From assembly GCF_000021745.1 (NCBI RefSeq), contig NC_011666.1:3437001-3501000 (forward strand): a stretch of DNA of 64,000 nucleotides, given 5' to 3'. The stretch comes from Methylocella silvestris BL2 (lineage in GTDB: Bacteria > Pseudomonadota > Alphaproteobacteria > Rhizobiales > Beijerinckiaceae). The position numbers and the translations under genes were made by a program. Under the pieces are notes generated by a model, which was not told the DNA's origin, ran no database searches, and worked only from the letters and a program-made list of their open reading frames with translations. Below are positions 17,148-29,561 of the stretch, one piece after another (the stretch's first letter is position 1; each line of letters begins with the position of its first letter).

Positions 17148-17825
17148 TGAATTTCACACTGGCTGCAATTTAGAGCATGCGCGCGAAAAAAAGGAGTTTT
17201 TTCCTATCGTCTGATTTGCAGCGCAAGCGAGCTTACGGTTTCAGCAGGCACCGCCAGTTTGGAAAAGCCAGCGCAGAACCGTCGGCGATCATGGCGCGTA
17301 GCGGCTTGACGGCGCCCTTCGGGAGTTTCGTCAGACGCTCTCGTAAGGAAATTCTCTCAAATAATAGTCCAATAGTCTTCCAGGAAACATAGATTTGTTC
17401 CTGTGCTCTTTCGTTAAGCTGGCCAAAATTAAGTCCCCGTTAGATTTGCAAGTCCTGTGAGACTTGAACCGGGAGCGTCTAGCGTTAATATGAAGCGTAT
17501 TACCTTATAGGCGGCGCTGTTGGCGTTACCTCGCTGAGTGTCCGTTTGGAAAAAACCCGATTTCTTGCAAAGCGCTCATGGTGAGGAGGCTCCCCCTGAA
17601 AGCATCCTCTCATCCCGAGCTTGTCGAAGGGCGACATGCCATCCCTCACGAGATGGCTCCTCAGGATGAGGAGAACCCAATTTCCAAACAGCCGCTGAAG
17701 AAAGGCGACATTGGCCCAACCCGGCGCCTCAAGGAGGCTGGCATGGTTTGTCCTCGCGTTCTTGGTCGATCGCAATCGGCGGCGCTCATTGGCTTGAGGA
17801 CCTGCAACTGTCGCGTGATCCGGCG
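17148..17825. other. Long intergenic region
   Basis: About 680 bases with no gene I can support. AT-rich tracts at 17340-17500 may carry promoters. A palindromic repeat occupies 17575-17671 and is listed separately. Confidence 0.4.
17575..17671. repeat. REP-like imperfect palindromic repeat
   Basis: The outer arms CTCATGGTGAGGAGGC and GGCTCCTCAGGATGAG are near-inverse copies, and the interior holds CATCCCGAGCTTGTCGAAGG. Repeats of this composition are scattered between genes in many Hyphomicrobiales genomes. It is probably a mobile intergenic repeat without its own gene. Confidence 0.6.
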
Positions 17826-18446
17826 ATGAAAGTGTTGCTTGTCGATGATCATATTGTCGTCCGCGAAGGCGTGCGTCGCTTGCTGTCGGTCTTCGTGGAG
17901 TCGGTCGAGCTGCTCGAAGCTGGAACGACGCTCGAGGCCTTGTCGATCTATCGCTCCACGCGTCCCGATATAGTCATTCTCGATCTCAATCTTCCGGGAA
18001 CTGGCGGGCTCGAGCTGCTGAAGCGGCTGCTGATCGAAGATCCAAGAGCGCGCGTGCTGATCTTCTCGATGCACACCGTGACGCTCTATGTTGCGCGCGC
18101 GCTGCAGTCCGGCGCGAGAGGCTATATCAGCAAAGGCGCCAGCGCCGAGGAGTTCGTCGAGGCAATTCACCAGGTGATGGGAGGCGGCCGCTATATCGAA
18201 CGCGAACTTGCGGCCGATCTCGCGCTCAATGTTTTTGGCTCGCAAGATCCGGGCAAGTCGCTTTCGGCGCGTGAACTTGACATCATGCGCCTTCTCGCCA
18301 AAGGCAAAAGCCTTTCGGCGATCGCCGACACGCTCGGCGTTTCCTACAAGACCATCGCCAACACGTGCACGGCGATGAAGCACAAGCTTCTCGTTCAGCG
18401 CACCAGTGATTTGATCCGACTCGCCGTTGAGATGCACGCTTCTTAG
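17826..18446 (+). CDS. LuxR-type response regulator, MoxX-like
   Basis: A 206-residue NarL/LuxR response regulator. The receiver domain has the acidic pair D7-D8, the phospho-acceptor D53 in IVILDLNLPG, S81 and K103. A LuxR helix-turn-helix follows at about 145-205 (LSARELDIMRLLAKGKSLSAI, then VSYKTIANTCTAMKHKL). It sits convergent to the end of the xox gene group. Its likely partner, an HisKA_3 kinase with a LapD/MoxY-type sensor, is at the other end of the block (28200-29561). In Paracoccus, MoxX and MoxY regulate methanol oxidation; by that precedent I infer control of xoxF here. It is preceded by a long repeat-bearing intergenic region. Confidence 0.88.
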   Translation: MKVLLVDDHIVVREGVRRLLSVFVESVELLEAGTTLEALSIYRSTRPDIVILDLNLPGTGGLELLKRLLIEDPRARVLIFSMHTVTLYVARALQSGARGYISKGASAEEFVEAIHQVMGGGRYIERELAADLALNVFGSQDPGKSLSARELDIMRLLAKGKSLSAIADTLGVSYKTIANTCTAMKHKLLVQRTSDLIRLAVEMHAS

Positions 18447-18507
18447 CGTGATCTTCAGGAGCGGCAGGCGACTCCTTTTAAACTCCTCCGATCCGCCCTC
18501 GTTCGCT

Positions 18508-19491
18508 TCAAGGGCTGATCGCAATGCCCCAAGGCAAACGGCCGACGGGAACGGATCGCACGACTTTCAGATTATCAACGTCGATCACCGACAGATCGTT
18601 GGTCAGTCCGTTTGCAGCGTAAAGCGTCTTGCCGTCCAGGTTTAGCGCGAGCTGCCAGACGCGATCGCCGACCAGCAGATATTTTATAACTTTCAAGCTC
18701 GCTACGTCGATCACCGCGACCCGGTTGGCCCGGCCGAGCGCGACGAACGCAAGCTTGCCGTCGAGACTGAACCGAAGACCCACAGGCGAGATCAGCTCCT
18801 TCCGTATTCCGGCCACTTCGAAATTGATCTTGTGCTTGACCACATGCTCGTCGGAATCAATGATCGCGACCGTCCCCCCCACCTCCGACGTCACCCACAC
18901 CTCTCTGCCGTCGTGGGTATATTCTGCAATGCGCGGACGTGTATCGACAAGGACATTGGCGACGACCATCCGCGCCGACGCGTCGATGAAATGCGCCATG
19001 CTGGTCGACTCCGAGACATCGACAATGGTTTTGCCGTCGGCGCTGACGGCGAGGCCTTCAGGCTCGATGCCGACTGGAACCTTCGCTAGAACTTTTCCGG
19101 TCTCGCGCTCCAGCATCGTCACCATGGAATCATCTTCATTAGAGACGTAAATGATGTCTCCTTTTGGCGACAGCGCCAGCGTCTCGGGATCCGGTCCGGC
19201 ATCGATCGTGCGCGATACTTCGAGCTTATCCGCGTCAATGACCGAGATGTCGCCGGAATCGCCATTGCAGACGAGCACTTCACGCCCGTCAGGGGTAATG
19301 ACAATGCCGCGCGGACGCTGTCCGACCGGAATCGTCTTGATCGTCGACAAACTGACGCCGTCGAGGACGGTGATCGTGTTATCGCGCTCGTTGCTCACGA
19401 AGATCCGGCTGGCCCACGCCGCGCTGCTTGCGGCCGAGAGGCAGATAAAGGCGCCGGCAACGCAAAGAAGCCTTATTGAGCGAAATGACAT
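18508..19491 (-). CDS. PQQ-associated YVTN beta-propeller protein
   Basis: A 327-residue secreted beta-propeller. A signal peptide (ending near SSAAWA) is followed by about seven repeats of the YVTN type, such as SNERDNTITVLDG, GDSGDISVIDADKLEV and NGLTNDLSVIDVDNLKV. Proteins of this length next to PQQ dehydrogenases form a recognised group, the PQQ-dependent catabolism-associated beta-propeller proteins. Its function is not known; a chaperone, scaffold or cofactor role is possible. Its ATG overlaps the end of the substrate-binding gene by 19 bases, so it belongs to the xox operon. The companion ABC ATPase and permease genes that usually follow are absent. Confidence 0.87.
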   Translation of the reverse strand: MSFRSIRLLCVAGAFICLSAASSAAWASRIFVSNERDNTITVLDGVSLSTIKTIPVGQRPRGIVITPDGREVLVCNGDSGDISVIDADKLEVSRTIDAGPDPETLALSPKGDIIYVSNEDDSMVTMLERETGKVLAKVPVGIEPEGLAVSADGKTIVDVSESTSMAHFIDASARMVVANVLVDTRPRIAEYTHDGREVWVTSEVGGTVAIIDSDEHVVKHKINFEVAGIRKELISPVGLRFSLDGKLAFVALGRANRVAVIDVASLKVIKYLLVGDRVWQLALNLDGKTLYAANGLTNDLSVIDVDNLKVVRSVPVGRLPWGIAISP

Positions 19492-20726
19492 TTCGTCTCC
19501 GGCTCGTCATATCCGAGGGTGTCAGTGAAGAATTTTGGATGCAGGAAGCCATCCTGTGGCGATATCGTGACTACCATTAGAGCGCTGGCCAGAAGGACCG
19601 GCTGTCGCAGCTGCTGATCCCAGCGACGGAATGTCAGCGCCTGCCCCTTGAAACCCGCTACTCCGAACGCGTCGGAGCGTAGGAACTCGGCCAGATCCAC
19701 CGGATTTGCTTTTCCGGAGCGAATGACCGCTTCGCCGATGGCGCGAACCGCCAGCCATCCGGCATAGTCGCGCTCGGTCATTTTGCGATGCGCCGCGAGT
19801 TCAAAGCGATGCTGCATCTGCAACGCCGAATATTCCTGAAACGCCGGATGCCAGGCGACCGGAGATAGTCCCTGCGTGCCGACGATCGGCCGCGGCTCAA
19901 ATGTGTTGTAAGGGAGATAATCGCCAAAGAGGTCGGCCGAGTCAGCGACAATCACCACATCGTGAGCCGGCGCGCCCTGCGTCGCCAGCGGCATTTGTGT
20001 CGCGATCTGTTGGTAGCCGGTGTCCACGCGGCGCGACCCGGCGTCATAATTATAGGCCCGATCCTCGACGACCTTGCCGCCGAAGCGGGACGCCGCACGA
20101 TGGATGTCGGCGGCAAAGGCGGCGTCTTCGGCGCTCGGCCCGTGCAGAACAAACCATCGCCGCCAGCCTTTCTTCGCCAGATATTGCCCCAGGGCGTCGG
20201 CTCGCATCGCCGTGCTTGGCAGAATGTGAAAGACATTCCGTGCGCATTTCCCCTGCCGCAACGCGTCGTCGCTGGTATGTATGTCGAAGATAAGCGCATG
20301 CTGGGCGGCGGGAGCATTGGCCAGCGCTAGAAGATCCGGCGCGTTGAGGTCGGCGACCACCACGCTATATTTGTCTAGAAGGCCATGCGCCTTTCCCGTG
20401 ACGTCGGCGCCTCGCTCAAGCGTGACGACGTCCATGGCAAATGAAAATCCGAGGAATTTTCCGGTGATGTTGATCTCGCCTAGCGCCAGAAGCGCGCCCG
20501 CTTTGCCATCGTCTCCAGGCTGACTCTGCAATAAAGACAAATATTCGGCCTTCGGATAATCCCCCGCCAGGTACAGGATCTTTATCTCGCTGGAGGCAGG
20601 CGGCGCGCTGGCGTTTTCCGGCTGGTCAAGCGCAAAAGCAGGTCCTATGTCGATTGACAAGCAAAGCCCTCCGCAAAGCAGCGCCGCGACAAAGGCGCCC
20701 TCTAAACGCAAGCGCCGAAGCCTCAC
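19473..20726 (-). CDS. PQQ-associated periplasmic substrate-binding protein
   Basis: A protein of about 417 residues resembling branched-chain amino acid type binding proteins, of the group found with PQQ-dependent alcohol systems. After a signal segment (about residues 10-32) come EIKILYLAGDYPKAEYLSLL, HALIFDIHTSDDALRQG and a C-terminal ISPQDGFLHPKFFTDTLGYDEPE, all familiar from that group. The GTG at 20726 overlaps the stop of xoxG as GTGA, so translation is coupled to xoxG. No ABC permease or ATPase lies nearby, so it may act as a stand-alone periplasmic factor or with a transporter encoded elsewhere. Confidence 0.87.
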   Translation of the reverse strand: MRLRRLRLEGAFVAALLCGGLCLSIDIGPAFALDQPENASAPPASSEIKILYLAGDYPKAEYLSLLQSQPGDDGKAGALLALGEINITGKFLGFSFAMDVVTLERGADVTGKAHGLLDKYSVVVADLNAPDLLALANAPAAQHALIFDIHTSDDALRQGKCARNVFHILPSTAMRADALGQYLAKKGWRRWFVLHGPSAEDAAFAADIHRAASRFGGKVVEDRAYNYDAGSRRVDTGYQQIATQMPLATQGAPAHDVVIVADSADLFGDYLPYNTFEPRPIVGTQGLSPVAWHPAFQEYSALQMQHRFELAAHRKMTERDYAGWLAVRAIGEAVIRSGKANPVDLAEFLRSDAFGVAGFKGQALTFRRWDQQLRQPVLLASALMVVTISPQDGFLHPKFFTDTLGYDEPETKCHFAQ

Positions 20727-21295
20727 CAATTCACCCGTTTTTGAGACCCTCTGTACAATGTGCGAAGATAGGCCAACAGCTCGAAGAGCTGTTCATCACT
20801 TTGGATGAGTTGGCCGAAGGGCGGCATCGGACCAACAATATTCTCCATGCCGACGCGGATAAATCCTTTTTTCTGTAAGCCGTCCGACCCGAGCGTGATT
20901 AGACGAAACAGCGTGTCATCGTCGCTTCCGTACACCCAGGTTTCATTGGTCAGGGGCGGACACATGCCGCCGCCGCCATTTCCGCCATGGCAACCTGGGC
21001 AGCCCATACCCTGAAATACGGCTTTGCCGGCTTCGATCTTATCGGCCTGCCCGGTATAAGGATTGTTGATGGTAGCCAACGGCGCCGCCGCGACGACGTC
21101 CGCCGGCGTTTTTCCCGTGACCTCTGATTTCGGAAGAAGCGCGGAGGGGCTCTTCTCGGGATCGGCTAAGGAAGGCTGACGCTGGTTCGCAGGTCCTGCA
21201 GGCGCGGCCTCGCTCGCCGGCGCCGCTGGATCAGCTCGGGACGCCGCGCAAGCGAACGCCAAGGTCGCGGCGACAAGCAACAGCTGCCTCATCAT
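20723..21295 (-). CDS. xoxG: Cytochrome c, XoxG-like electron acceptor
   Basis: A 190-residue monohaem cytochrome c, the expected electron acceptor of XoxF. It has a signal peptide ending near ASRADP, a Pro/Ala-rich linker, then the haem motif CPGCHGGNGGGGMCPPLTNE and the likely methionine ligand in VGPMPPFGQL. The segment WVYGSDDDTLFRLITLGS is shared by cytochromes cL/XoxG. GGAGAGGAGG lies before the double ATG. It lies 65 bases after xoxJ and overlaps the following gene, so the order xoxF-xoxJ-xoxG-binding protein-propeller forms one transcription direction. Confidence 0.88.
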   Translation of the reverse strand: MMRQLLLVAATLAFACAASRADPAAPASEAAPAGPANQRQPSLADPEKSPSALLPKSEVTGKTPADVVAAAPLATINNPYTGQADKIEAGKAVFQGMGCPGCHGGNGGGGMCPPLTNETWVYGSDDDTLFRLITLGSDGLQKKGFIRVGMENIVGPMPPFGQLIQSDEQLFELLAYLRTLYRGSQKRVNW

Positions 21296-21359
21296 TTACA
21301 ATCCTCCTCTCCGGTGAGTTTGGTAAAGCGACCCGGCGGTAAGACGCGGCGCCGGCGTC

Positions 21360-23105
21360 TCATTTCGTCGAGGTCTTGGCGAAGAGATCGAGCATCCGCG
21401 CCGCCGACGTCCCGCCGTTCTTGACCGCGATCTCGCGCGCTGTTTCGCCATCTGAGCTTTTCATGTCGGCGGCAGCCGAGGCCTGAATCAAAAGGCCGAT
21501 CATCGGCGCATTGTCGCGCGCAGCCGCGATCATTAGCGCCGTCACGCCATCGACGCTGACCGCGTTCACATTTGCGCCCTTGGCGATGAGCGCGCGCGCG
21601 ATCTCGACCGAATTCAAGGACTGCGTCAGTTTCTGGACGCGGCTCTCCGGCGGCGGCTCGCTCGCCGCGATCATCAACGGCGTTATCTTCTTGGCGCCGA
21701 CAGGTTGATCGACCTTCGCGCCGCTATCGACCAGGGCTTTGGCCGCATCATATTTCTTTTCCTCGATCGCGACAGCAACCGGCGTGAACCCGCCGGGCGC
21801 CGACGCCTCCACATTTGCGCCATGCGACAGCAGCAATTGGATCCCGGGCGCGTCGTTGCGCAGGATGGCGTGCAGCAGCGGCGTCCATCCGTCGCTGTCC
21901 GCCGCCTCGACATCGGCGCCATGATCGAGAAGAAATTCCGTCGTCGAAAGCGCTCCGAGGCGAACGGCCGCGGTCAATGGCGTGTAGCCCTGAGGATCCC
22001 GCTTGTTTATGTCGGCGCCTTTACCGAGCAAATACTCCAGCCGCTTATTGTCCGACGCCAACACAGCATTATCGAATTCGCCGTCGACGTCGGCGCCGTC
22101 GGCCAGCCAATCGTCGAGCTGTTTGCGCGTGACTGCGGGCCTCTCCCGGCGCAGTTTCTCCATCTCCTCGGCGGAAACCATCGGCGCGGTATAGATTCCA
22201 TGCGCCTTTATCGTTCCCGGCACGAGGCAATCCGAGCATTCCACGAGGGGCACGCGATAATCCTCGAGGATTTTCCGGATTTCATCCTTGTGCGCATTGA
22301 GAGCGTTTTCGATAGCGTATTTGGCGATCGCATCTGTCTTGCGCACGCCAATGGCGATATCGAATTCCATCGGAATGACATCGTCCATCAGATTGGTCGG
22401 CTGGATCGCCAGCGGCGCGCCTTGCGCGAGCGCCCAGCCCGCAAAGGGTCCCCACACCGCCGCGACGTCGAGCTTTCCGTCGGCGACCTCCTGGACTTGA
22501 CGCCACGGCTGATGCTCCGGCGTCAGATCGCCGTCATGAGAAACCTCATGAACGTGGACATTGTTGACGACGCCATGATCGGCGAGCGACTGACGCGCCG
22601 CGGAGAGTTCGTAGACTCCAATCTGAAGCGTCTTCAACCGCGGATCGGAGAGGCCTTTGAAGTCATAAGCGCGATCCTTGCGCGAGGCGAAGACATAAGT
22701 GCTCCGGTACAGCGGAAAGGTCGTCAGCGCGGATTCATAGCCCGCCGGCACATTCATCAATATATCGCAGTCATTGGTGTCGAAGGTCTGGCGCGTCATG
22801 CCCCGTTCGATATAGGGGCGCCAGAAGTAGGTCGCCCTCGTCCCAAGCGCCTTTGCGATGACGTTTGCGATTTTATTCTCGAGTCCTTCTTCCGCCAGAT
22901 TCGAGAATGGCATGTTTCCCGGATCGCCGCAGACTCGAAACGACGAGAAATGCGCCTTGCGCGCGGCGGCTTTCGCGGCGTCGCGCTCGATCTGGCTGAA
23001 TTCTTCGAAAGGCTTGTTGTTGGGCGCCGCCTGAGCCAGCGCGCGCGACGCTGGCAAGCCCGCCAACAACGCGCCAACAAGGGCGGGAGAGATCAAAGCT
23101 TTCAT
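21360..23105 (-). CDS. xoxJ: XoxJ-like periplasmic protein fused to ankyrin repeats
   Basis: A 581-residue secreted protein. After a signal peptide (ending near RALAQ), residues about 55-310 form a solute-binding-protein-like domain of the MxaJ/XoxJ type: FRVCGDPGNMPFSNLAEEG at the start, DCDILMNVPAGYE, and the closing VECSDCLVPGTIKAHG. MxaJ/XoxJ is thought to assist methanol dehydrogenase maturation or activation. From about residue 335 to 575 there are six to seven ankyrin repeats, with consensus bits such as GYTPLTAAVRLG, FLLDHGADVEAAD and DGVTALMIAAARDN. XoxJ proteins are usually about 280-300 residues, so the repeat half is an added module. The start at 23105 is chosen for its signal peptide although its ribosome-binding site is poor. 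Confidence 0.88.
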   Translation of the reverse strand: MKALISPALVGALLAGLPASRALAQAAPNNKPFEEFSQIERDAAKAAARKAHFSSFRVCGDPGNMPFSNLAEEGLENKIANVIAKALGTRATYFWRPYIERGMTRQTFDTNDCDILMNVPAGYESALTTFPLYRSTYVFASRKDRAYDFKGLSDPRLKTLQIGVYELSAARQSLADHGVVNNVHVHEVSHDGDLTPEHQPWRQVQEVADGKLDVAAVWGPFAGWALAQGAPLAIQPTNLMDDVIPMEFDIAIGVRKTDAIAKYAIENALNAHKDEIRKILEDYRVPLVECSDCLVPGTIKAHGIYTAPMVSAEEMEKLRRERPAVTRKQLDDWLADGADVDGEFDNAVLASDNKRLEYLLGKGADINKRDPQGYTPLTAAVRLGALSTTEFLLDHGADVEAADSDGWTPLLHAILRNDAPGIQLLLSHGANVEASAPGGFTPVAVAIEEKKYDAAKALVDSGAKVDQPVGAKKITPLMIAASEPPPESRVQKLTQSLNSVEIARALIAKGANVNAVSVDGVTALMIAAARDNAPMIGLLIQASAAADMKSSDGETAREIAVKNGGTSAARMLDLFAKTSTK

Positions 23106-23140
23106 CGCGGAGAGAACCGTTCGCCACTGAAAAAGAAAAA

Positions 23141-23176
23141 ACACCCTGCTCAGTGCTCGGGGAGCGAGCAGGGTGT
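23141..23176 (-). terminator. Terminator after xoxF, in the xoxJ leader
   Basis: A perfect 11-bp stem (ACACCCTGCTC at 23141-23151, GAGCAGGGTGT at 23166-23176) with a 14-base loop. Read on the minus strand it is followed by TTTTTCTTTTT. It lies 24 bases after the xoxF stop and about 35 bases before the xoxJ ATG, so it should stop most transcripts after xoxF and let a fraction reach xoxJ and xoxG. Confidence 0.85.
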
Positions 23177-23199
23177 CCGGAGGAGGAACGGGATGTGTG

Positions 23200-25095
23200 C
23201 TAGTGGGCTGTGGCCTCCTTGTCCGGCACTCGGAACGTATAGAGGGCGCCGCCCTGCGGGATCTTGTTCAGTCCGATGACCTTGGTCAGAGCCGTCGAAC
23301 CGATCGCGCCGAACTTGTCTTCGAGATCGAGGCCCGCCACCGCCGGCAGGCCGATCCAGCCGCCGATGCCCGCGAACACCGAGATATATTCATGGCCCTT
23401 GATCTTGTAAGCGATCGGGTTGCCGATGATGCCGGAGCCGAGCTTGCGCTGCCAAAGCACTTTGCCGTTATCGCGGTCGACGGCGCGGAAGTCGCCGTTA
23501 AGGCTTCCGTAGAAGACGAGGCCGCCCGCCGTGTTCAGCGTGCCGCTCCAGTTCGGATAGGCGTCCGGGACCTCCCAGGCGGTCTTGCCGGTCAGCACGT
23601 CGAACTTCTTGAGCTTGCCCGTCACTCCCGGCTTTTCCGGATACATGTAGACATTGGCGAAGACATAAACCGTGCCCTGCTGCGTATGGGTGCGGGCCTG
23701 GGGCTCATCTTCCATGCACCAATTGTTCGTCGGCACATAGAAATTGGTTGGATCCTTGGGGTCGACCGAAGCCGGCTGCTGATCCTTGCCGCCCATCGCC
23801 GAGGGACAGGCCTGCGTGTTGACGCCGATCTTGAAGGGTGAGTGCTCCGGCACCTTGACCGGCCGTCCGGTCTTGAGATCGACTTTTTCGGCCCAGTTTA
23901 CGGTGACGAATTTGTGGGCGCGCAGGAGATTGCCGTCTGTCCGATCGAGGACATAGGCGAAGCCGTTGCGATCGAAGTGCACAAGCGCCTTGACGGGCTT
24001 GCCGTCGACATTCGGCATGTCGACAAGGATATTCTCGTTGACGCCGTCATAGTCCCATTGATCGAAAGGCGTCATCTGGTAGGCCCAGACGACTTCGCCG
24101 GTGTCGACCTTGCGGGCGAAGATCGTCATCGACCATTTGTTGTCCCATTTGCCTGAATTGCATTCCGCATCCGTGTCGGCGCCGCAACGCGTCGTCGGGC
24201 TCCAGTTCCCCGGGTTGCCGGTGGAGGCGTAAACAAGGCCGAGCTCGGGATCATAGCTGTACCAGGCCCAGGGCGACCCGCCGCCACGCTTCCACTCGTC
24301 GCCGGGATAGCTCGAGAGGCCGATATCGTGGCCATAAGTCCCATGTTCGGGATGCGCCTTGTTGGTGTCGGGGGTCAGGCAGACGTCCTTGTCCGTCCCA
24401 TTGCTCTGGCACCGCCAGGCGAGGTCGCCGGTCGCGAGGTCATAGGCTTCGAGCCGTCCGCGCGCAGCGAATTCATCGCCGCCGAAGCCGACGATCACCT
24501 TGTCCTTGGCGATCAACGGCGCGCTCGTCACCGTCTCGCCATGTTCGGGAAAGGCGTGCTTGACGACCCACAATTCTTGGCCGGTCTTGGCGTCGAGCGC
24601 GATGAGGAAGCCGTCCAGCGTGTTGAACAGCAGCTTGCCATCGGCGTAGTTCACGCCGCGGTTGACCACGTCGCAGCAGGCGCGCGGCACGGCGGACACA
24701 TCGCGATCGGTCCCCTTGTTGTAGGACCAGACCTGAACCGGATTGTCGGGGTCCGAAAGATCGAGCGCCTGCACGATGTTCGGCCAAGCGCTGACGAAAA
24801 ACATCATCGGCTTTCCGCCGACGTCGACAACGACTGGCTGCCCTTCGTGTCCGCGCAGAGCTCCCGAGGATTGCGACCAGGACATCTGAAGATTGCTGAC
24901 GTTGTCCTTGTTGATGTCCTTCAATTCGCTGTGACGCTGCAGGCCGAGATTTTGCCCCATCCCCGGCCAGAGATCCGGATTCTTGCTGTTCTTTATGATT
25001 TCTTCATCGGAGCCGGCCCAGGCGGCGCCCGACAGCGACGCCATCGCCAAACCGGCGAAGGCCGCGCGCCACGGTAAACTTTTCCGTAAATTCAT
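23200..25095 (-). CDS. xoxF: Lanthanide-type PQQ methanol dehydrogenase large subunit
   Basis: A 631-residue periplasmic quinoprotein oxidising methanol (and perhaps formaldehyde) with PQQ. Signal peptide MNLRKSLPWRAAFAGLAMASLSGAAWA. Hallmarks are the adjacent cysteines C140-C141 (RACCDVVNRG) over PQQ and the metal/catalytic motif WDYDGVNEN with D348 and D350. The second aspartate marks XoxF; calcium-dependent MxaF has alanine there. An insertion with CGADTDAEC and a longer loop before it (TPDTNKAHPEHG) separate it from the common XoxF5 form of Methylobacterium, so it is probably another XoxF clade. The start at 25095 has GGGAGGAG. No small subunit (mxaI) is near. A dedicated terminator follows. 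Confidence 0.95.
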   Translation of the reverse strand: MNLRKSLPWRAAFAGLAMASLSGAAWAGSDEEIIKNSKNPDLWPGMGQNLGLQRHSELKDINKDNVSNLQMSWSQSSGALRGHEGQPVVVDVGGKPMMFFVSAWPNIVQALDLSDPDNPVQVWSYNKGTDRDVSAVPRACCDVVNRGVNYADGKLLFNTLDGFLIALDAKTGQELWVVKHAFPEHGETVTSAPLIAKDKVIVGFGGDEFAARGRLEAYDLATGDLAWRCQSNGTDKDVCLTPDTNKAHPEHGTYGHDIGLSSYPGDEWKRGGGSPWAWYSYDPELGLVYASTGNPGNWSPTTRCGADTDAECNSGKWDNKWSMTIFARKVDTGEVVWAYQMTPFDQWDYDGVNENILVDMPNVDGKPVKALVHFDRNGFAYVLDRTDGNLLRAHKFVTVNWAEKVDLKTGRPVKVPEHSPFKIGVNTQACPSAMGGKDQQPASVDPKDPTNFYVPTNNWCMEDEPQARTHTQQGTVYVFANVYMYPEKPGVTGKLKKFDVLTGKTAWEVPDAYPNWSGTLNTAGGLVFYGSLNGDFRAVDRDNGKVLWQRKLGSGIIGNPIAYKIKGHEYISVFAGIGGWIGLPAVAGLDLEDKFGAIGSTALTKVIGLNKIPQGGALYTFRVPDKEATAH

Positions 25096-25218
25096 TAGCT
25101 CCTCCCAAGGCGTCACGAAATCATCGGCATTGTTTTATCAAAGCGACTCTCTCGCTTTGCTGCCCTCGATCCGAACGACCGGAACAGTAGCGCAATCCAA
25201 CAAGGGCGATAGAGCCGG

Positions 25219-25248
25219 TTTTCCCGAAAAATCGGGAAAATATTCCCG
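25219..25248. promoter_or_regulatory. Alternating TTCCCG half-sites between xoxF and receptor genes
   Basis: A perfect inverted repeat (TTTTCCCGA at 25219-25227, TCGGGAAAA at 25232-25240, four-base spacer) is followed at once by a third half-site, TATTCCCG (25241-25248). The three half-sites alternate in direction. The site lies 124 bases upstream of the xoxF start and is a good candidate for binding of the MoxX-like regulator. Confidence 0.5.
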
Positions 25249-25407
25249 CCGGCAAGACCACGGTTGCTTTTCTGACAAGGGACGCGCTCGGACCCAACTC
25301 GCACGAAAACAATGGCCAAGCCGAATCCAAAAAGGGCGCCCGATCTGATCAAAGGCAGTCATTTAAGATCGATATCAATCAACAATGTATGCTACCCGGT
25401 CCGGAAG

Positions 25408-25438
25408 GGAATAATCCTGCGGCGAGAAGGATTATTCC
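25408..25438. promoter_or_regulatory. 11-bp hyphenated dyad upstream of receptor gene
   Basis: GGAATAATCCT (25408-25418) and AGGATTATTCC (25428-25438) are perfect inverse copies with a nine-base spacer. They lie about 220 bases before the preferred GTG start of the TonB-dependent receptor. It could be an operator, or a hairpin in a long 5' leader; no T run follows. Confidence 0.5.
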
Positions 25439-25660
25439 ATCGCTGCGCGGGCCAACATCTCGCGCATGAATGACTTGTCCACGCCTATACGTTTTGATCG
25501 TAATATAATTGCAACTCCCTTTATCCAGAATTTGAAATCGTCTTTTTCGGCGTTGCGCTTGAAAGACGCTGCATTAACGTTCTATCGCCCTATCAAGCGC
25601 CGGCAAGGAAAGCCTTCTTCCACAATGCTGGCGCCAGAACGAAACCGGAAGGAAAGTCTC

Positions 25661-28084
25661 GTGGACGCCAGAACAGCTAGGTCGTTCATTGTCGCCTCGG
25701 CGGTCGGCGGCGCTGCGATTATCGGCGCGGCTCAAGCCCAGGACGGCGACGGAAACACCCTTGTATTGCCGGACGTTATTGTTGTGTCGCCGACGCCGGT
25801 GCCAGGCGCGAGCAGCATCGACAAAGACAAGGTTCCCGCATTCGTATCGACTGTGACGTCGCAGCAATTCGAGGATAAGAAATCTCCCGCTGTCGCGGAT
25901 GCGATCACGGCCCATGTGCCGGCGGCGATAGGGATCAACGTCGACGGGACCGACCTCTCCCCGGATCTGTTTTATCGCGGCTTCGACACGTCCCGCATAT
26001 CGGGGACGGCGCAAGGACTCGCTGTTTATCAGAATGGCGTGCGCATCAACGAGGCGTTCGGAGACAGCACAAATCTCGATCTTATTTCTCCGATCGCGAT
26101 CGACCGCGTCGACGTCTTTACAAACAATCCGATCTTCGGATTGAACGCGCTCGGCGGCGCCATCAATTTTACGATGAAGAACGGCTTCACCTATCATGGC
26201 GGCGAGGCTCAGGTTCTCGGCGGCTCATACGGGCGCCTTTACGGCAGCGTGCAATATGGCAAGCAGGTCGGCGACTACAGTATTTATTTCGCGACCGACG
26301 CTTTGCGCGATGATGGCTATCGCCCCTTCGGAGCGCAAAATCTGCAACGCGCTTACGCCGATCTCGGCTACCGCACGCAGGATTCCGAATTCCATGCGAT
26401 TGGCGCCTTCAGCCGCACCTGGCTCGGCGTTCAGGGCACCACGCCCCTGGTGCTCGTAGACCAGCAGTATAACTCCGTTTTCACGACGCCGCAGACGACC
26501 AATAATCAGGCGGGTCTGGTTCAGATTACCGGCCGTTTCGACCTGACGCCGACATGGTCCCTGGCGAGCAATTTCTATTACCGTCAGTTCGACCAGTATC
26601 ACGTCGACGGCAACGACGCCGATATCGCGAACTGCGGCGATCAGGGGGGCACGGACGGCAACGCCTGCCTTTCCAACGATGGCGCATTCTTCGGCCACAA
26701 TCCGAACGATTATCAATTCACCAATCACGGCCAGCCGATCCCGTTCCTCGGCGACGACTTCCCCTATGGAACGACCGCCTTCACCGCCACGCATACGCAG
26801 ACATTTGGCGCGCAGGAGCAGCTGACAAACAAGGACAAGCTCTTCGATCACACCAATTATTTTGTTGTCGGCGGCAGCGTCGACCAGAGCTATACGCATT
26901 TCTCGTCGACGACGACGCTCGGTCAGCTTGATCCGAGTTTCCAGAATTTGTTCACGGGCTTTCCGGGCTCGCAAGCCGTTCTCCAGACCGAAGGCAATGT
27001 CGGCTTCGCGCCGGTCTGGGTGCATGGATCGGCGACCTATTTTGGCCTTTTTGCCCTCGACACCCTGAACATCACCAATGAATTCGCCGTAACGGCTGGA
27101 GCAAGGTTCAACGTCGCCAATATCGGGCTTTCGGACGTCAGCGGCCAGTCTCCCGACCTCAACTCCAATGCCAGCTATAATCGCATCAACCCGGTCGTGG
27201 GTTTCACCTACACGGCCTCGCCGGCCTTGACCTTCTATGGCGGCTACTCTGAAGCAAACAGGGCGCCGACGCCGCTCGAAAGCCAGTGCTCCAACCCGGC
27301 GCTGCCTTGCGTTCTCGAGACCGCGCTTGTATCAGACCCGCCGCTGCAGCAGGTCGTCTCGCACACCTTCGAAGGAGGCGCCCGCGGCACGCTGACGATA
27401 CCAAATGGCTACGGCACATTGGTTTACAACGCCGGCGTATTTCATATCACGAGCACCAATGACATCGTCAACGAGGCGAGCGAAATCTCGGGGCAGGGAT
27501 TCTTTACCAATGTGCCGGAAACCTTGCGGCAGGGCGCGGAACTTAGCCTTCAGTATAACTATGGGCCGGTGAGCCTTTACGCCAATTACGCCCATGTTGA
27601 CGCGACTTATCAATTCAACGGCACCTTCTCGTCTCCGAATAATCCTTTCGCTGACGACGACGGTAATATTTTCGTCCGGCCGGGCAATCGCATTCCCGGC
27701 ATTCCGAGCAATCTCGGCAAGTTTGGCGTGACCTATGCCGTGACCCCGCAATTCAAGGTGACGGCGGAGGCGGTCGTCGTCGGGGACCAGTATTACACGG
27801 GCGATGATTCCAATCTCAATCCGAAGCTTCCCGCTTACTATTATGTGAATCTGCGGGCCACATATCAGGCGACCGAGCAAATCCAGCTGTTCGGATTGAT
27901 CAACAATGTGACCAATCACAGATACGCGACATTTGGAACGTTTTACGGTACCGACACGAGCGGCGGGAATGTCAACGCCACTCTGTTCAACAATAATCCG
28001 GAAAATGGCGGCATCGGCGACGCGCGAGCGGTGACTGTGGCGCAACCTCTGTCGGTCTACGGCGGATTCAAAGTTACTTTTTGA
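25661..28084 (+). CDS. TonB-dependent receptor linked to xoxF; candidate metal uptake
   Basis: An outer-membrane receptor of about 807 residues. The preferred start is GTG at 25661: it has GGAAGGAAAG upstream and gives a normal signal peptide (DARTARSFIVASAVGGAAIIGAAQAQ). An open frame continues upstream to 25466 but lacks a signal there. The plug domain has DVIVVSPTPVPG (TonB box region), LFYRGFDTSRISGTAQGLAVYQNGV split across the plug, and LNALGGAINFTMKNG. The barrel closes with VYGGFKVTF, a classical aromatic end. A loop near residue 315-340 is rich in Asp, Asn and Gly with two cysteines. Placement opposite xoxF suggests uptake of lanthanide or a metallophore, as for LutH in Methylobacterium; this is inference. 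Confidence 0.9.
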   Translation: MDARTARSFIVASAVGGAAIIGAAQAQDGDGNTLVLPDVIVVSPTPVPGASSIDKDKVPAFVSTVTSQQFEDKKSPAVADAITAHVPAAIGINVDGTDLSPDLFYRGFDTSRISGTAQGLAVYQNGVRINEAFGDSTNLDLISPIAIDRVDVFTNNPIFGLNALGGAINFTMKNGFTYHGGEAQVLGGSYGRLYGSVQYGKQVGDYSIYFATDALRDDGYRPFGAQNLQRAYADLGYRTQDSEFHAIGAFSRTWLGVQGTTPLVLVDQQYNSVFTTPQTTNNQAGLVQITGRFDLTPTWSLASNFYYRQFDQYHVDGNDADIANCGDQGGTDGNACLSNDGAFFGHNPNDYQFTNHGQPIPFLGDDFPYGTTAFTATHTQTFGAQEQLTNKDKLFDHTNYFVVGGSVDQSYTHFSSTTTLGQLDPSFQNLFTGFPGSQAVLQTEGNVGFAPVWVHGSATYFGLFALDTLNITNEFAVTAGARFNVANIGLSDVSGQSPDLNSNASYNRINPVVGFTYTASPALTFYGGYSEANRAPTPLESQCSNPALPCVLETALVSDPPLQQVVSHTFEGGARGTLTIPNGYGTLVYNAGVFHITSTNDIVNEASEISGQGFFTNVPETLRQGAELSLQYNYGPVSLYANYAHVDATYQFNGTFSSPNNPFADDDGNIFVRPGNRIPGIPSNLGKFGVTYAVTPQFKVTAEAVVVGDQYYTGDDSNLNPKLPAYYYVNLRATYQATEQIQLFGLINNVTNHRYATFGTFYGTDTSGGNVNATLFNNNPENGGIGDARAVTVAQPLSVYGGFKVTF

Positions 28085-28093
28085 ACCTGGTCT

Positions 28094-28119
28094 GCGGCGC
28101 GGCTCTGGGGCCGCGTCGC
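28094..28119 (+). terminator. GC-rich hairpin after receptor gene
   Basis: GCGGCGCGGC (28094-28103) and GCCGCGTCGC (28110-28119) pair at nine of ten positions with a six-base loop, ten bases after the stop codon. There is no T run, so termination may be partial and the kinase gene downstream may be read through. Confidence 0.45.
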
Positions 28120-28199
28120 AATTGCCGTGTTAGAGGGTCTGCGCTCAGTTCGATGTTTAAAGATGTGCTGCGATTGTCTGGCCCGCTCTGAGGCTTTCC

Positions 28200-29561
28200 A
28201 TGTCGATCCAAAGCCGCCTGGTCGCATCCCTTACCATCGTCCTGATTGTGAGCCTCGCCTTTGGCTCTGCGCTCACCTATGAGCATGTCCTCGATAAGGT
28301 TCGCACGGAGATGCAGGCGGCCATGTCGGTCGGCTTGCATACGGCCGGCAACGCCGTCGACGATCGCGAGGAGGCGATTGATCCCGCGAAGCGGCTGCGG
28401 CTGGTCGTTGATGATTTCAACGGCGACCGGCATTTGCGCGCGACGCTTTTCGGGCCTCATGGCGAGGTCCTCGCGCGTTCGCAGTTGCTGGCGCCAGATG
28501 ACCCGGCGCCAAGCTGGTTCTACCGTCTCGTCACAGCGGCAGAGCCGCTGCGGACGCAGCTCGACCTGCCGTTCGCGTTTCATTCCATCGGCGGCATGAC
28601 GCTTGAGGCCGACCCCCATAATGAGGTGGCAGAGGCCTGGAGCGATTTCCGCCTCACCCTGATCATCATGGCGGTTTTCTTTACCCTGGTCCTTGCGCTG
28701 GCGTTCTGGACCATCCGGACGGCGCTGAGCCCGTTGCGCGACGTATGCGACGCCTTTTCCGGGATTGGCGGCGGCGACTATGCGACGCGCGTCGCGCCTT
28801 TGGCTTATCGAGAGCTTGAGCCGCTTCGATACGGATTCAATATCATGGCGGCGCGGCTTGAGGGGATGACCACGCAGAACCGCGCGCTGCATGAGCAGAT
28901 TGTCAATGTGCAGGAGGAAGAGCGCGCGGAGCTGGCGCGCGATCTGCACGACGAGGTCGCGCCGTTTCTATTCTCGGTCGGCGCGGACGCCGCGATGATC
29001 CGGCAGTTTCTTCAGACGGGGATGGGCGACCAGGTCGGCCCCCGCGCGGACGCGATCTCCGACGCGGTGCGTCATATGCAGAGGCATTTAAGGGACGTTC
29101 TGCGCCGCCTTGCCCCCGGCGCCTTGCTGGATCTCGGCCTTGCCGGCGCGATTGACAATCTGATCGGCTTCTGGAAAGCGCGGCGCCCCGAATTATCCTT
29201 CGGCGTAGACGTCACGGAAGAGCGAATAGGGCTGCCGCTCGACGCTGTCGTCTTTCGCGTCGTTCAGGAAAGTCTCAGCAATGCGATACGGCATGGCCAG
29301 CCGGCAAGGATCGATGTGCGGATAAAGATCCTTGAGCAGCGGATCCGAATCGTCGTGGAAGATGACGGCAGCGGCTTTTCGAAGGATCGGGGGCCGAACG
29401 GGTTTGGACTTGCCGGCATGCAGGAGCGTGTCCGTTCGGTCGGCGGAGTTGTGACCATTCGCAATCGCGCATCCCGCCAAGGCGTGATTGTCGAGGCCGA
29501 CATTCCGATTGGCGGTAAATCGAGCCTGGAGCGCTCGGAGGCATCGAGCATTTCGGCATAA
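28200..29561 (+). CDS. HisKA_3 sensor histidine kinase, MoxY-like
   Basis: A 453-residue membrane kinase of the NarX/DegS type. Membrane helices lie at about residues 8-26 and 150-172, enclosing a periplasmic domain of about 120 residues that resembles the LapD/MoxY N-terminal domain. A HAMP-like linker follows (LSPLRDVCDAFSGIGGGDYATRV), then the phospho-accepting H250 in ELARDLHDEVAP and the ATPase boxes VVQESLSNAIRHG, EDDGSGF and GFGLAGMQERV. The kinase follows the receptor by 115 bases on the same strand. No response regulator is adjacent; the LuxR-type regulator at 17826-18446 is the likely partner, as in the Paracoccus MoxXY pair. Confidence 0.9.
   Translation: MSIQSRLVASLTIVLIVSLAFGSALTYEHVLDKVRTEMQAAMSVGLHTAGNAVDDREEAIDPAKRLRLVVDDFNGDRHLRATLFGPHGEVLARSQLLAPDDPAPSWFYRLVTAAEPLRTQLDLPFAFHSIGGMTLEADPHNEVAEAWSDFRLTLIIMAVFFTLVLALAFWTIRTALSPLRDVCDAFSGIGGGDYATRVAPLAYRELEPLRYGFNIMAARLEGMTTQNRALHEQIVNVQEEERAELARDLHDEVAPFLFSVGADAAMIRQFLQTGMGDQVGPRADAISDAVRHMQRHLRDVLRRLAPGALLDLGLAGAIDNLIGFWKARRPELSFGVDVTEERIGLPLDAVVFRVVQESLSNAIRHGQPARIDVRIKILEQRIRIVVEDDGSGFSKDRGPNGFGLAGMQERVRSVGGVVTIRNRASRQGVIVEADIPIGGKSSLERSEASSISA

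Follow-up and report, generated by a model that had tools for sequence, protein, structure and literature searches.

The 64,000 nucleotides of the Methylocella silvestris BL2 chromosome analyzed here ('the window'; NC_011666.1, positions 3,437,001 to 3,501,000) hold a methanol oxidation block built around xoxF1, with a gene for a NarL-type response regulator (17826-18446) at one end and a gene for a MoxY-like sensor kinase (28200-29561) at the other. That the two proteins form one cognate pair is well supported by comparison with related genomes. We think it probable that they are a single two-component system, an xoxF1-linked relative of MoxYX/MxaYB, whose genes were separated in M. silvestris and which acts on a palindrome in the middle of the block, CGGGAA-N4-TTCCCG. 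The first-pass annotation, made from the letters of the window, had described regulator and kinase as orphans bracketing the block and had proposed one regulon for enzyme, electron transfer and metal uptake; profile searches of the window proteins found all the block genes it named where it had put them.

A profile search of the BL2 genome gave five HisKA_3 kinases and 12 GerE proteins. Four of the kinases are each adjoined by a NarL-type regulator, which leaves over the window kinase and the window regulator, orphans as had been said. A separate cognate regulator beside a closer MoxY homologue was sought in the BL2 genome and was not found. The gene order in relatives gave a clear picture: of 22 loci of the kinase's clade, 20 have the regulator next to the kinase (a count that includes genome G006, where the regulator is broken in two frames), and two, BL2 and M. 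silvestris TVC only, have it 9.76-9.78 kb away. The orthologues stand side by side in G014 (kinase 72% and regulator 84% identical, the genes overlapping) and in G009 (72% and 82%); adjacent pairs are also found in a Beijerinckiaceae metagenome-assembled genome (locus L199), in G023 and G045, and in Hyphomicrobium and Chthonobacter loci.

In a maximum-likelihood tree of 84 of the 103 distinct kinases in the examined loci (those with at least 330 aligned residues), the window kinase fell into a clade of 21 rows with 100/100 support; these rows, together with G007 (L140), which is absent from the tree, make up the 22 loci. MxaY of BL2 stands outside this separate clade, therefore we speak of a sister branch and not of MxaY itself; the name MoxY is used by resemblance. 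Coevolution of kinase and regulator, a check that the annotation had suggested, came out in favor of the pair. In a mirror-tree comparison (the 91 of 103 kinases that have a neighboring regulator, plus the window kinase) the correlation between window kinase and window regulator was r = 0.92, and none of seven other regulators of the genome exceeded 0.13; four of the 12 GerE proteins had failed the similarity or length filter. As a control, the true partner was recovered for all four known pairs of the genome, with a close runner-up in one of them (0.84 versus 0.78). Kinases without a regulator alongside occur outside this clade as well: 12 of the 103 have none within 600 bp (some at contig ends or with the regulator broken). 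On the MxaY side, for instance, a kinase (C1:1787276) of G001 is 13 kb away from a regulator (C1:1801598) that may or may not be its partner.

The kinase has HisKA_3 and HATPase_c domains above cut-off, thus a MoxY/MxaY-type kinase core, which in a PDB comparison (where the matches were kinase cores) is of DesK class; its phosphorylated histidine, H250, is conserved in 103 of 103 kinases and its ATP-binding motifs are intact. The LapD_MoxY_N match is sub-threshold (17.7 versus a cut-off of 25 bits); of four further clade members scanned, two have the LapD/MoxY periplasmic domain above cut-off, as does BL2 MxaY. The periplasmic domain of the window kinase covers about residues 30-150, and R77, H78, E142 and W147 are among the conserved sensor-domain positions; a correspondence of E142 to E147 of a constitutive M. 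buryatense MxaY mutant (PMC5018670) is possible, and we draw no claim from it. A structure model (mean pLDDT 81, pTM 0.42) was used for domain layout only. The regulator, with receiver and GerE domains, has the MoxX/MxaB-type architecture.

Since the cognate pair is adjacent in relatives and split in BL2 and TVC (G008, L198) only, the ten-kilobase gap is a rearrangement within M. silvestris and no general design. The order in G014 is receptor-kinase-regulator, followed by the xox block in the opposite direction; in BL2 it is regulator, xox block, receptor-kinase, with the regulator standing alone. From these orders it follows that the receptor-kinase segment and the regulator-xox segment swapped places. 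G014 also has a transposase gene, ∼0.9 kb upstream of its receptor. A tblastn search of the BL2 and TVC flanks for remnants of a tandem duplication, namely regulator fragments behind the kinase and kinase fragments ahead of the regulator, gave 0.13 as the best E-value, kinase 3′-ends aside; no such remnant was found.

The block is the xoxF1 cluster of M. silvestris BL2, Msil_3146-3149 and neighbors (PMC9291206; this source, PMC5018670 and PMC12997753 are cited throughout for the portions of their text available to us). Its features are as follows.

17826-18446, plus strand: NarL-type response regulator, Response_reg and GerE (LuxR-type DNA-binding) domains; from domain profiles, alignment and the kinase partner at 28200-29561

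18508-19491, minus strand: PQQ-associated beta-propeller protein, TIGR03866 above cut-off; LutB homologue according to PMC9291206

19473-20729, minus strand: PQQ-associated ABC substrate-binding protein, Msil_3146, TIGR03863 above cut-off; LutA homologue according to PMC9291206

20723-21295, minus strand: xoxG1 cytochrome c, Cytochrome_CBB3/Cytochrom_C; named XoxG1 in PMC9291206

21360-23144, minus strand: xoxJ1, periplasmic binding protein fused to ankyrin repeats, TIGR03871 and Ank families above cut-off

23200-25116, minus strand (start 25116 or 25095): xoxF1, PQQ methanol dehydrogenase with DYD motif, TIGR03075 above cut-off

25221-25226, no strand: third half-site, TTCCCG, of the candidate operator; from the upstream alignment

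25233-25248, no strand: candidate operator CGGGAA-N4-TTCCCG in the divergent xoxF1/receptor intergenic region; from alignment and locus scans

25466-28084, plus strand: TonB-dependent receptor, Plug and barrel domains above cut-off; LutH homologue according to PMC9291206

28200-29561, plus strand: MoxY-like sensor kinase with periplasmic domain, HAMP, HisKA_3 and HATPase_c; starts 115 bp after the receptor

For the regulator, the list of open reading frames gives a TTG start at 17748, but its relatives align from 17826 onward; the receptor probably starts inside its listed frame, near 25625, because homology begins near residue 54. Counted along the locus tags, the regulator and kinase proteins are probably Msil_3144 and Msil_3151.

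Alignment of the regions upstream of xoxF1 in BL2, TVC and G014 revealed a single strongly conserved element, CGGGAA-N4-TTCCCG, with the third half-site about one helical turn away. Across genomes it takes the form CGGGAA-N3/4-TTCCCG; the BL2 chromosome has a single perfect copy, the one between xoxF1 and the receptor-kinase genes. We scanned 51 of 52 named loci, omitting TVC, which had served for motif discovery. With at most one mismatch, the promoters of xoxF, kinase and receptor genes (38 kb) contained 18 hits and the other 887 kb contained 15; by length 1.4 promoter hits would be expected, and 58 permuted half-sites reached at most two, but the 18 hits are not independent, as several of the Hyphomicrobium loci are close relatives of each other. 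The palindrome lies within 12 kb of the kinase in 18 of the 22 clade loci; at the second kinase locus of G045 (L192) it is present, though not upstream of the kinase. With up to two mismatches, promoters of receptor-family genes are enriched (8 of 20; none of 59 permuted controls reached that). The palindrome seems to be a newly identified element, and no earlier description was found in the open papers.

A wider BL2 regulon was sought as well. Sites with at most one mismatch were at background: 28 versus 32 per strand for the backward control with the N4 spacer, and 14 versus 23 with N3; as such copies are no commoner than in the control, we claim no further BL2 targets. A two-mismatch copy upstream of BL2 mxaF is a lead only, and so is another (L149 position 7237, BL2 ∼1041237) upstream of a second receptor, 52% identical to that of the block. 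A variant, CGGGCA-N3-TGCCCG (L145 position 5315, BL2 ∼2466315), lies 78 bp upstream of another BL2 kinase of this family and is perhaps the site of a paralogous regulator. In G045 a perfect palindrome, CGGGAACTACTTCCCG, is located upstream of another PQQ dehydrogenase gene (C7 ∼644919, L293).

Linkage to xoxF and to the receptor can be followed separately. Among the 22 clade loci, 15 carry xoxF (at least 64% identity), and in six the receptor lies no more than 1 kb from the kinase; three of these six are without this xoxF. In G001, G006 and G007 the best dehydrogenase matches to XoxF1 are only 47-49% identical, and a kinase of the same group stands beside a receptor of the same family, divergent from it, with the palindrome between them; the link of kinase and receptor is thus kept even in the absence of xoxF1. 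The G001 receptor is 83% identical to that of the block. In the same genome (L138, 8929-18710) the pair, divergent from the receptor, is followed by CobW and CobN genes, possibly a metal-uptake unit without xoxF. G009 is another genome that lacks this xoxF: its kinase matches only from residue 86 onward (L132, 15649-17342), while the adjoining regulator matches almost end to end; the sensor part of this kinase seems to have been lost along with xoxF1.

What lanthanum does to the block is published (PMC9291206). It lowered the xoxF1 transcript 24-fold and the xoxF1 promoter activity 6-fold; XoxF1 and XoxG1 proteins fell 7-fold, XoxJ1 62-fold, and the substrate-binding protein, the beta-propeller protein and the receptor 3-5-fold each. 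Since enzyme, cytochrome, XoxJ, the two Lut-like proteins and the receptor all go down, the data support a single regulon that lanthanide represses, and the single palindrome in the divergent promoter fits it. The part assigning control to the local pair we infer, as no mutant of this kinase or regulator was found in the open papers. We would picture the system as follows. With lanthanide scarce, the kinase would be active and would phosphorylate the local regulator; the phosphorylated regulator would bind CGGGAA-N4-TTCCCG between xoxF1 and the receptor and activate both divergent transcripts, presumably xoxF1-xoxJ1-xoxG1-lutA-lutB on one side and receptor-kinase on the other; lanthanide would shut the kinase off, and expression of the whole block would drop. 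Conjectural in this picture are the phosphotransfer, the regulator's binding to the palindrome, that it activates and does not repress, the limits of the operons, and lanthanide as the signal.

Several observations weigh against it. The margin of the mirror tree is smaller by rank correlation (0.67 versus at most 0.53). A search allowing one mismatch did not find the palindrome in four of the 22 clade loci (G009, L199 where xoxF is cut, L224 and G035) or ahead of the regulator gene that stands alone in BL2; four of the 22 loci have neither xoxF nor receptor nearby. Eight of the ten kinase-promoter hits stand before distant kinases, 24-32% identical, which makes it probable that the palindrome serves a broader family of regulators, one that may include MxaB. 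Finally, linkage is no proof of function, since the lanthanide switch of M. buryatense does not use the regulator adjoining mxaY (PMC5018670).

The published model in fact assigns xoxF1 control to MxaY/MxaB (Msil_0484/0485) of another cluster (PMC9291206); besides mxaF and xoxF5, these two could govern both xoxF1 and the receptor, leaving the local pair another or a minor role. In M. silvestris lanthanum raises xoxF5 and lowers mxaF, and an mxaY mutation is the only regulator lead that the available text offers: in a strain deleted for xoxF5 and carrying a truncated mxaY, the xoxF1 promoter no longer responds to lanthanum (the remaining difference being minor and non-significant), as MxaY control would predict. 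That strain is without XoxF5 too, so the effect of MxaY is not isolated, and the authors state that their data are no proof of a connection to MxaY (PMC9291206). MxaB is itself lowered by lanthanum, as XoxF1 is (PMC9291206), its recognition helix is partly like that of the window regulator, and the two-mismatch copy before BL2 mxaF would suit it. However, with up to two mismatches the palindrome is not enriched at mxaF-like promoters (4 of 16, which 11 of 59 permuted controls reach), and neither is it at xoxF5 promoters (1 of 4, reached by 14 of 59); moreover, MxaY stands outside the clade that travels with xoxF1, and a dedicated pair has been kept beside xoxF1. We regard control of the block by MxaY/MxaB as rather unlikely. 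It is very improbable that the split uncoupled the pair and left the two M. silvestris genes to decay or to work with other partners. Related copies do decay, as the shortened kinase match of G009 and the broken regulator of G006 indicate; in M. silvestris, on the other hand, both proteins are full length and 92% (kinase) and 97% (regulator) identical between BL2 and TVC, the residues for phosphorylation and ATP binding are intact, and both strains retain the palindrome.

Among known systems, MxaY/MxaB of M. silvestris resemble the local pair in being a kinase and a NarL-type regulator of like type, encoded next to a methanol dehydrogenase cluster and already connected with the lanthanide switch in the literature (PMC9291206); they differ from it in sequence (31% identical for the kinase, 40% for the regulator, on a separate branch) and in that their genes are adjacent, in an mxa cluster without a receptor. 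The remaining systems are likened by description, not by sequence. MoxX/MoxY (MxaX/MxaY) of Paracoccus denitrificans also lie beside methanol oxidation genes, but they serve mxaF and form one operon, and MxaX is required for mxaF expression while the kinase MxaY is dispensable (PMC5018670); the annotation's wording that MoxX and MoxY act together there was thus too strong. In M. buryatense MxaY and the orphan regulator MxaB are likewise non-adjacent and both take part in the lanthanide switch, though MxaY adjoins another, uninvolved regulator; without lanthanum mxaF goes up and xoxF down there (PMC5018670), whereas xoxF1 of M. silvestris is high. PedS2/PedR2 of Pseudomonas are a kinase and a LuxR-type regulator in a PQQ dehydrogenase cluster with a rare-earth response, and this cluster also has a substrate-binding protein and a PQQ-associated beta-propeller gene (PMC12997753); they differ in serving the alcohol dehydrogenases PedE/PedH and in having adjacent genes.

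A few observations concern the block genes themselves. The genome has five methanol-dehydrogenase-like genes, and a 473-residue kinase adjoins the mxaF-type gene; the legend of Fig. 2 in PMC9291206 names sensor kinases and regulators within methanol dehydrogenase clusters. XoxF1 is of clade 1, and in the available text its authors leave open both its role and the metal in the enzyme (PMC9291206); in our alignment the DYD motif with the extra Asp, WDYDG, is invariant in six of six sequences. The TIGR03872 match of XoxG1 is sub-threshold (45.6 versus a cut-off of 147.8 bits). Ankyrin repeats occupy the C-terminal half of XoxJ, and the fusion is widespread: all 52 named loci (L198-L249; Hyphomicrobium, Methyloceanibacter, Methylotenera, Methylophilus and others) match through the ankyrin region. 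An ankyrin domain on a periplasmic protein is, to our knowledge, unusual, and no paper on xoxJ together with ankyrin was found in the open literature. Upstream of the BL2 receptor there is also an inverted repeat, GGAATAATCCT / AGGATTATTCC (25408-25438), not conserved in TVC.

One could speculate further that XoxF1 and a LutH-like receptor have an old, separate branch of the MoxYX type to themselves, and that through one CGGGAA palindrome a lanthanide-starvation regulon switches on enzyme, electron carrier, periplasmic lanthanide handling, outer-membrane uptake and sensor together; we offer this wider view tentatively, as one that may well not hold. A two-component pair lying ten kilobases apart can be recognized by comparing relatives, and now that a dedicated pair and a 16-base candidate operator are defined, how enzyme and receptor respond to lanthanum can be put to a direct test. 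If such a starvation regulon exists, the lanthanide switch would have a third arm in addition to mxaF and xoxF5, and the repression of XoxF1 by lanthanum would be explained.

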